Source: a virus
IMG/VR virus record: IMGVR_UViG_3300009073_000034
Location: 1-24,055 of that record
DNA length: 24,055 nucleotides
Strand: one strand, 5' to 3'
Shown here: one piece after another, positions 20,955 to 22,266 of the stretch
How positions within the stretch are numbered: the first letter of the stretch is position 1
Layout of the letters: each line of letters starts with the position of its first letter
The notes under the pieces: model-generated
Seen by the model: only the letters and a program-made list of their open reading frames with translations
What the model was told of the DNA's origin: nothing
Databases searched by the model: none
Position numbers and translations under genes: made by a program

Positions 20955-21506
20955 ATGGAACATAATCATCACGCGCACGAGGAAATTAATTCACTAGTAC
21001 AAAGTGCTGGTGACACGTCGCATGGTTTTATAGCTTGGTTACTTGATTTTATTCCTAAAAGTACTCAGACAGACAGAAGTCTTTCGGAAGTTTTTGCGAA
21101 CTTAATGCCCCATAATCACTGTTTTTTGTGGGCGAAAGAACTTGTTCCATTTTGGTTTTCTGCAAACATGTTTATTTTTACCTCTTATTTAGTAATAGCT
21201 TCTTCATTAACTATAGTTTTTGTAAAAAGAAAAGAGATGCAACACATTTGGATAAGTTTGATATATGCTTTATTTATAGTAATGTGTGGCATCGGACATC
21301 TTATAATGGCTCTCAATATTTTTGAAGGGGCTTATATTTTGGAAACATATTGGCATATCGCTACAGCTATTATTTCCGTCGCTGCGATGCTTGTTACTTT
21401 GAGATTAGTTCCTGTTTTAATTAATGCGCCGAAACTGGATCATTTGTCCGAAGCTTTAAAGCTCGCGGAAAAAGTTCGTCGAGAATTAGAGGCGTTAAAA
21501 AAATGA
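20955..21506 (+). CDS. Ethylene-receptor-like membrane sensor domain, no kinase
   Basis: 183 aa. After a His-rich start (MEHNHHAHEE) and an MPHNHCFLW motif come three membrane helices, near residues 65-90, 98-122 and 128-156. FIVMCGIGHLI places Cys 111 and His 115 four residues apart, as the copper and ethylene ligands Cys65 and His69 of Arabidopsis ETR1; the preceding helix has N71 where ETR1-type proteins have Asp. MPH-x-HC-x-LW is typical of bacterial proteins with this domain. The chain ends in a coiled-coil stub (HLSEALKLAEKVRRELEALKK), exactly where a kinase or GAF region normally begins. The next gene overlaps by ATGA. Ethylene binding itself is inferred, not shown. Confidence 0.75.
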   Translation: MEHNHHAHEEINSLVQSAGDTSHGFIAWLLDFIPKSTQTDRSLSEVFANLMPHNHCFLWAKELVPFWFSANMFIFTSYLVIASSLTIVFVKRKEMQHIWISLIYALFIVMCGIGHLIMALNIFEGAYILETYWHIATAIISVAAMLVTLRLVPVLINAPKLDHLSEALKLAEKVRRELEALKK

Positions 21507-21943
21507 GTTACGATAAGGATAAGGATTTTAATAAGATACTATCAGGTTTGCAGAGTGCGACTTCTTCGCTTTCGCAAGCTGTCGATCATATAAAAGAATA
21601 TGTTTTAGAATTAAAAACAAAATCAGCTAATAACGAAAGCAGGCTTCAAATTCTCGAGAGAGAATATAACGAAAGACTACAGAGAGTAGAAAGTAGAAGC
21701 AGTGAGAGAATACACGCTTTGGAAAAAGAAGTGGCTGTTTTAAAAGTCAGCAAGACTTTAAATAATAATAATAATAATAAAAATGTTTTGGAAACAATCA
21801 GGCCATTACCTCAGAAAGAATTTAAAGAGATAGATTTAAAATTTTGGATAAAAGCAGGTTTAGGAGCCGCGGCTGTATTCACTTTTTTATTTAAAGATTT
21901 ATTTAATTTCTTTTTAAAGATAACAGGAAGTGGCGGAGAATGA
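21503..21943 (+). CDS. Coiled-coil protein with C-terminal membrane helix
   Basis: 146 aa. Residues about 8-84 are a continuous coiled coil (NKILSGLQSATSSLSQAVDHIKEYVLELK, ESRLQILEREYNERLQRVESRSSERIHALEKEVAVLK), then a run of six Asn encoded by six AAT codons (21761-21778), and a hydrophobic helix at 114-138 (WIKAGLGAAAVFTFLFKDLFNFF). This coil-then-TM layout resembles XhlA-type holin-associated proteins, so a lysis role is a serious alternative. Both ends overlap neighbours by ATGA (sensor upstream, receiver downstream), which suggests a tail-anchored link between them. No kinase motif (H-box, N-box, G-box) is present. Confidence 0.7.
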   Translation: MSYDKDKDFNKILSGLQSATSSLSQAVDHIKEYVLELKTKSANNESRLQILEREYNERLQRVESRSSERIHALEKEVAVLKVSKTLNNNNNNKNVLETIRPLPQKEFKEIDLKFWIKAGLGAAAVFTFLFKDLFNFFLKITGSGGE

Positions 21944-22266
21944 TTAAGAGAAAAAAAATACTTATAATAGATGATTCGGAAGAATGGTTTTATTATCTTA
22001 ATAGAGTTTTAAAAAATCATGATGTTCACTGGGCATTAAGTATAATCCAAGCGGAGAGAATGGTTCGTGTTATAAAATATGATCTAGTAATTTGTGATTA
22101 CATGGGAATAACGATAGACGGAAAACCGCCGAAGCTTGAATTTTTAAAAGGTAAAAAACACATCGTATCTTCGGGAATGATTTTACAGAAAAAAATAAAA
22201 AACTTTGTTCCAAAAGATGAAATAATTAAATGGTTTTTAGATAACAAATATATAATAGAGGAGTAA
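21940..22266 (+). CDS. Stand-alone CheY-like receiver protein
   Basis: 108 aa receiver domain. It opens KKILIIDDSEEWFYYL, giving the acidic pair D11 and D12; the strand LVICDYMG presents D53 as phospho-acceptor; HIVSSG gives the Ser switch (S77 or S78); FVPKDE gives the invariant Lys K92. All residues needed for phosphorylation are present. It is slightly shorter than the usual 120 aa, with loop regions trimmed, and has no output domain. Being phage-encoded and alone, it could compete for or drain phosphoryl groups from a host kinase or respond to one. ATG 21940 overlaps the preceding stop. Confidence 0.8.
   Translation: MIKRKKILIIDDSEEWFYYLNRVLKNHDVHWALSIIQAERMVRVIKYDLVICDYMGITIDGKPPKLEFLKGKKHIVSSGMILQKKIKNFVPKDEIIKWFLDNKYIIEE

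Follow-up and report, generated by a model that had tools for sequence, protein, structure and literature searches.

What is the membrane domain of an ethylene receptor, separated from its kinase, doing beside the endolysin of a tailed phage? The domain, ETR1_N, is known as the front part of histidine kinases. The window – the whole stretch of DNA analysed here, 24,055 bases long – is a virus record of its own and holds a tailed-phage late region. Gene by gene, from the terminase to the baseplate and tail proteins, it is colinear with the Bdellovibrio phage phi1422 (29–58% identity), which makes a Bdellovibrio-like host likely. Beyond the tail genes lie, in order, small membrane-protein and lipoprotein ORFs, an amidase endolysin, the three genes that are our subject, and fibre-like genes:

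19389–19736, plus strand: 115-aa protein with a hydrophobic segment at residues 31–49, a possible separate holin
19733–20086, plus strand: lipoprotein-like ORF with an LLLFTSC lipobox, a possible outer spanin with an unusual start
20083–20949, plus strand: endolysin, N-acetylmuramoyl-L-alanine amidase (Amidase_2, PF01510, E=3.4e-6, above cut-off; PHROG lysis amidase, E=6.5e-7)
20955–21506, plus strand: gene 1, kinase-less ETR1_N membrane protein, 183 aa (PF25487, E=7.4e-16; AlphaFold2 pLDDT 84.7)
21503–21943, plus strand: gene 2, coiled-coil protein with a C-terminal transmembrane (TM) helix, 146 aa (from sequence scores; equivalents beside ETR1_N in most other phage lineages)
21940–22266, plus strand: gene 3, putative stand-alone divergent receiver, 108 aa, with a shortened second half (PF00072, E=0.006, below cut-off; PDB receiver, E=0.004)

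The original prediction, made from the DNA alone, described three genes joined by ATGA overlaps and lying beside lysis genes: an ETR1-like membrane protein without a kinase, a coiled-coil protein whose C-terminus forms a membrane helix, and a receiver. The coordinates and the overlaps, at 21503 and 21940, are right; five bases separate the endolysin stop (20949) from the first ATG, and the GC content of the three genes is 0.32 against a comparison value of 0.385. The amidase bears out the lysis setting, with the plural proving generous, for it is the sole recognised lysis gene. Searches of Pfam and PHROGs with the 115-aa ORF gave no holin or other clear family match, and the ORF that follows it has a clear lipobox with ATG, GTG and TTG all absent ahead of it. 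Used alone as a query, the window endolysin found no relative.

The first protein passes the ETR1_N cut-off with 58.6 bits against 27 (residues 63–156), and carries the CGIGH motif (C111, H115) within its second TM helix as well as an N-terminal PHxxC-W motif. The AlphaFold2 model has three long predicted TM helices (63–91, 98–124 and 127–156) and a C-terminal helix (161–182). There the protein ends: GAF, PAS, HisKA and HATPase_c are all absent downstream of the membrane part, and no HATPase_c domain was found anywhere in the 24-kb record. It shares 39% identity over 90 aa with a protein of Maribacter phage Colly, and the single significant match of the model in a viral fold library is a 289-aa protein, the same length as the Colly protein. 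A PDB fold search with the model returned nothing significant; we know of no solved ETR1 membrane domain. Searches of Pfam, PHROGs and NCBIfam gave no match above cut-off to holin families, XhlA and XhlB included.

The second protein has the coiled coil and the C-terminal hydrophobic helix that had been predicted (residues 120–138, mean hydropathy 1.56). The receiver assignment stands in part. Receiver residues can be read by eye in order (D11/D12, D53, S77 or S78, K91), a reading that automatic alignment does not support for S77/S78 and K91, and the match to Response_reg is weak, with only the first half aligned and a score of 17.2 bits where the cut-off is 30.2 (a search of one genome gives E=2.3e-4). 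Receivers are also the top fold matches (E of at least 1.5e-3) of a low-confidence model (pLDDT 61) that was itself built with receiver rows. We regard gene 3, tentatively, as a divergent stand-alone receiver with a degenerate second half; tblastn found no phage relative of it.

How widely is such a domain carried by phages? Among 50,697 phage records, tblastn located ETR1_N only in the Maribacter phages Molly and Colly, and single- and two-sequence searches of IMG/VR recovered Molly alone. A DNA pattern derived from the fixed spacing of the family (F-x-x-x-C-G-x-[small]-H, 21 residues, T-A) returned 21 contigs from IMG/VR: besides Molly, 16 pass the Pfam cut-off and 4 are chance. From two further patterns came one kinase and two members of a group already known, and searching 149 Planctomycetota genomes for the family contributed a single phage-like locus (L070). 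With near-copies counted once there are 14 kinase-less lineages: the window, Molly/Colly, the G021/G025/G033/G034 group, G016, G022, G023, G024, G026, G027, G028, G029, G083, the plasmid-like G019 and the chromosome-like G017 (L031/G017, 350 kb, without a partner gene). The patterns fix several residues, and copies without C65 or H69 would escape them; gene calls on the metagenomic contigs are our own. Rejected as chance pattern matches were L033, L037, L047, L048, L063, L066–L068, L086 and L087. The kinases L034, L049, L050 and L069 and the kinase-like L036 served as controls and were excluded from the members of the unit; three of these contigs (L034, L049 and L050, all from IMG/VR) carry one identical 481-aa ETR1_N-PAS-kinase protein, a complete kinase that is either phage-carried or host-derived. 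Bacterial ETR1_N copies, also a control, lie mostly in long, kinase-sized ORFs. No HATPase_c domain was found in the other unit-bearing phage records, the chromosome-like G017 being set aside and the match in Colly being a topoisomerase.

What recurs is a pair. Under an automatic rule, a gene encoding one terminal TM helix and a coiled coil adjoins ETR1_N in 9 of the 14 lineages as against 6 of 278 other genes at the same loci (binomial tail 8e-10), the calls being simple scores with thresholds chosen after some loci had already been viewed. The count is 8–11 of 14 at TM cut-offs of 1.3–1.6 and 5–6 of 14 at 1.8 (tail 1e-4 to 2e-5), and the excess persists when the window is left out. The rule is narrowly missed by G027 and by the window itself (hydropathy 1.56, cut-off 1.6), and the G033 group has its partner two genes off. 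Overall the pairing holds for 9–11 of the 14 lineages, compared with some 2–3% of the other genes at these loci. The partner may lie upstream or downstream of ETR1_N and be anchored at its N- or C-terminus, and several pairs share a 4-base overlap; this therefore looks like the repeated assembly of one kind of pair. The receiver is a different matter: among the 14 lineages it was found in the unit of the window phage only. G016 does have a receiver match, which was not accepted as belonging to the unit: it is on the opposite strand, where the end of the contig appears chimeric. The refuting condition named with the original prediction, separate carriage of the genes in relatives, thus gives a mixed result: the first two genes keep company across phages and the third does not. 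What is conserved is the pairing of ETR1_N with the TM-coiled-coil gene, receiver not included.

Relatives of the window phage bear on the history of the pair. At the equivalent place phi1422 has a TM-coiled-coil gene, gp69 (L008 2329–2715), and no ETR1_N gene, and L028 likewise has a late-region TM-coiled-coil gene (2779–3084, minus strand) without ETR1_N. The partner may therefore have been there first, with ETR1_N added later; for the same reason, a shared late region could account for part of the adjacency. No ETR1_N gene was seen in the available DNA of relatives of the window's capsid (L011–L021), which are mostly fragments, with L014, L018 and phi1422 the longest.

A central issue is what the phage domain might sense. 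Phage copies keep C65 and H69 (AtETR1 numbering), both of which are demanded by the search patterns. Nearly all also keep Y32, S98 and, where the alignment reaches it, the N-terminal Cys; no pattern requires Y32 or the N-terminal Cys, nor D25 or K91. It is these last two that part company with the receptors: of the bacterial or kinase copies that could be read, 14 of 15 have D25 together with K91, whereas among the phage lineages 1 of 13 does (Fisher P=8e-6). The seven residues reportedly found by Wang and colleagues in 2006 to be needed for ethylene binding by AtETR1 are D25, Y32, I35, P36, I62, C65 and H69. At these positions the window has N, Y, I, A, I, C and H, two of the seven differing, and at K91 it has H. 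The literature gives the count of seven, states that D25 is needed for ethylene binding, and describes modelling in which D25 positions His69 and bonds to K91, which takes part in receptor output (PMC11819568). Loss of the D25–K91 pair, together with Ala at P36 in the window, makes ethylene an unlikely ligand, and the domain is probably not an ethylene sensor. A copper-centred redox sensor, a sensor of another small ligand, or a structural role is possible for the phage domain.

The maximum-likelihood tree, built from a short domain and marked by long branches, needs three label changes to accommodate the phage copies, and two of these, G022 and G083, fall inside the planctomycete group. This suggests several separate recruitments of ETR1_N by phages, about three by the tree.

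An endolysin, annotated or above cut-off, lies within five genes of ETR1_N in 3 of the 14 lineages – the window (amidase, gene offset -1), Colly (amidase, +1) and L072 (GH25, E=3e-12, +5) – and two more have weak matches, to CHAP just under cut-off in L059 (+4) and to lysozyme in L062 (+2). In Molly and Colly the TM-coiled-coil gene is followed, with a 4-base overlap, by ETR1_N and then by the amidase. The order in L072 (IMGVR_UViG_3300010361_000826) is tail protein, ETR1_N, membrane protein, TM-coiled coil, two stand-alone PAS proteins and GH25 lysin. The two PAS-domain proteins, between the TM-coiled-coil gene and the lysin, occupy 6–1352 on the minus strand, and L072 is the second phage, with the window, to add separate signalling domains and no kinase. 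Remaining ETR1_N copies occur in head, tail or unplaced regions, and phage structural genes flank many of them; that of L051 sits between portal and head genes. On the same contig (L030/L051, IMGVR_UViG_3300025942_000160) a Mu F-like head protein (5–1786, minus strand) is apparently interrupted by an intein-like region, and the contig end appears chimeric, since a NarL-type response regulator there continues into a Vsr-like endonuclease. The description of Molly and Colly lists an amidase and no holin, notes proteins of 1–4 TM segments near lysins, and makes no mention of ethylene (PMC8776804).

The most economical model leaves the domain its role in kinases, that of a dimeric membrane sensor which drives a coiled coil, while the TM-coiled-coil partner would replace the kinase. 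The ETR1_N protein would dimerise and, as we infer from two residues that the patterns themselves require, still bind Cu(I) at the Cys/His site within the membrane. Its state, set by copper, redox, a small ligand or membrane potential – probably not by ethylene – would pass through helix–helix contacts to the TM-coiled-coil protein, which would stand in for the coiled coil of the kinase itself. The outcome would be the switching of some late event at the membrane, for which the likeliest candidate is the moment when the adjacent endolysin begins to lyse the cell; the receiver of the window and the two stand-alone PAS proteins of L072 would be lineage-specific cytoplasmic add-ons. Counted in favour of such a switch is the finding of PF25487 above cut-off in the window, the Maribacter phages, all non-chance IMG/VR records of the first pattern, two more, and the Planctomycetota locus. 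Endolysin adjacency, together with the lack of an annotated holin beside the Molly amidase (PMC8776804), points to lysis. Counting against it are the firm endolysin neighbours in only 3 of 14 lineages and another possible holin in the window (19389–19736). Judged from sequence, we favour over a simple phosphorelay a late membrane switch that would probably act in lysis; the full proposition – kinase-less ETR1_N and its TM-coiled-coil partner as a late-expressed membrane unit, recruited several times, that switches a late membrane event – we hold tentatively, at somewhat short of an even chance. Unlikely, though possible, is its bolder form, a new kind of lysis control in which the unit would be a copper-dependent sensor-holin, or a sensor gating a holin, taken up independently by phages of several phyla; accumulation alone would then not trigger lysis, which would await some chemical state of the host membrane.

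In the main rival explanation the holin or pinholin would be the ETR1_N protein, the partner an XhlA-like helper (XhlA combines a coiled coil with a TM helix at its C-terminus) or a spanin-like protein, and the Cys/His site a structural feature or redox trigger. The three TM helices of the model would suit a holin, Molly has an amidase without an annotated holin, and the order in L062 (ETR1_N, coiled coil with a C-terminal TM helix, lysozyme-like gene) resembles xhlA-xhlB-xlyA. Yet the strong retention of sensor-family residues (C6-equivalent, W11, Y32, S98) exceeds what a holin needs, no holin family matches above cut-off, several copies lie away from any endolysin, and the window holds another holin candidate; we consider this rival unlikely, if serious. 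The varied genome places of ETR1_N would suit a moron, that is, a unit for host manipulation or superinfection exclusion at the inner membrane, placed in the late region for convenience, and both the absence of an ETR1_N gene from phi1422 and the lower GC of the three genes agree with it. The tight overlap with neighbours, the repeated pairing with the same kind of partner, and the nearness of an endolysin in several lineages leave this distinctly improbable.

The host-kinase phosphorelay of the original prediction – input and output supplied by the phage, the kinase by the host, with lysis timed or host signalling diverted – draws on a receiver that retains its phospho-acceptor set, on a record free of HATPase_c, on the stand-alone PAS proteins in the comparable run of L072, and on Azospirillum, in which the gene of an ETR1-type kinase shares an overlap with that of a stand-alone receiver of 135 aa (PMC11819568). 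Both proposed ends, domain and putative receiver, are present in the window; but the receiver is missing from the unit of every other lineage (the match in G016 comes from an apparently chimeric contig end), and the description 'both ends of a phosphorelay' therefore fits one phage. With a degenerate second half in that receiver and the loss of an Asp25–Lys91 pair tied to binding and output, the scheme seems improbable, and would apply at most to receiver-bearing phages. That the pairing is an artefact of gene density, of loose TM and coiled-coil scoring, or of host DNA in the viral collection is very unlikely: the scores are simple and IMG/VR does include some host-like contigs, the 350-kb G017 without a partner gene among them, but the pair is present in cultured Maribacter phages, is enriched over same-contig genes at all thresholds tried, and is in many cases embedded among phage structural genes.

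Four known systems come closest. With AtETR1, SynEtr1 and AzoEtr1 the phage unit shares PF25487, three TM helices, the copper ligands Cys65/His69, the N-terminal Cys/Trp motif, Tyr32 and Ser98; unlike them it is without GAF, PAS and kinase and is phage-encoded beside an endolysin, and unlike ethylene receptors the window has Asn for Asp25, His for Lys91 and Ala for Pro36. The AzoEtr1/Azorr-etr1 genes of Azospirillum resemble the window in having an ETR1_N gene, a stand-alone receiver downstream and overlapping genes (PMC11819568), whereas AzoEtr1 contains a kinase where the window has the TM-coiled-coil protein. Two small membrane proteins adjoin an amidase in XhlA-XhlB-XlyA of the Bacillus prophage PBSX too, a system in which all three genes are required (PMC5589764); XhlB, however, is not ETR1-like, and the phage partner proteins have no Pfam match to XhlA. 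The lysis region of Molly and Colly likewise has a TM-coiled-coil gene, an ETR1_N gene joined by a 4-base overlap, and an amidase (PMC8776804). It differs in that its TM-coiled-coil gene lies upstream and encodes an N-anchored protein, its ETR1_N protein carries additional sequence at the C-terminus, a receiver is lacking, and the annotation is hypothetical. Among the open-access papers searched, none links ethylene receptors with phage holins, and those naming both an ethylene receptor and a bacteriophage are, judged by title, plant or expression work; the original statement that no phage system of this kind was known to have been described agrees with the papers searched.

An ETR1_N domain without a kinase, found in many unrelated phages beside a repeated partner and with Asp25–Lys91 lost, amounts to a signalling domain given another, viral use. 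If a lysis role is true, phages would gain a chemical cue for the timing of the burst, a long-standing question of phage biology. The cultured Maribacter phage Molly carries the unit, so the question is directly testable.

Elsewhere in the window, a Fis-type helix-turn-helix ORF similar to phi1422 gp46 (2773–3150) overlaps, in another frame, a SEC-C-motif ORF (2930–3193) whose phi1422 homologue is located elsewhere (L007 9357–9548). One Ig-like repeat is shared by two structural proteins of the window (8207–8914 and 15372–17036) and by phi1422 proteins at the corresponding places.
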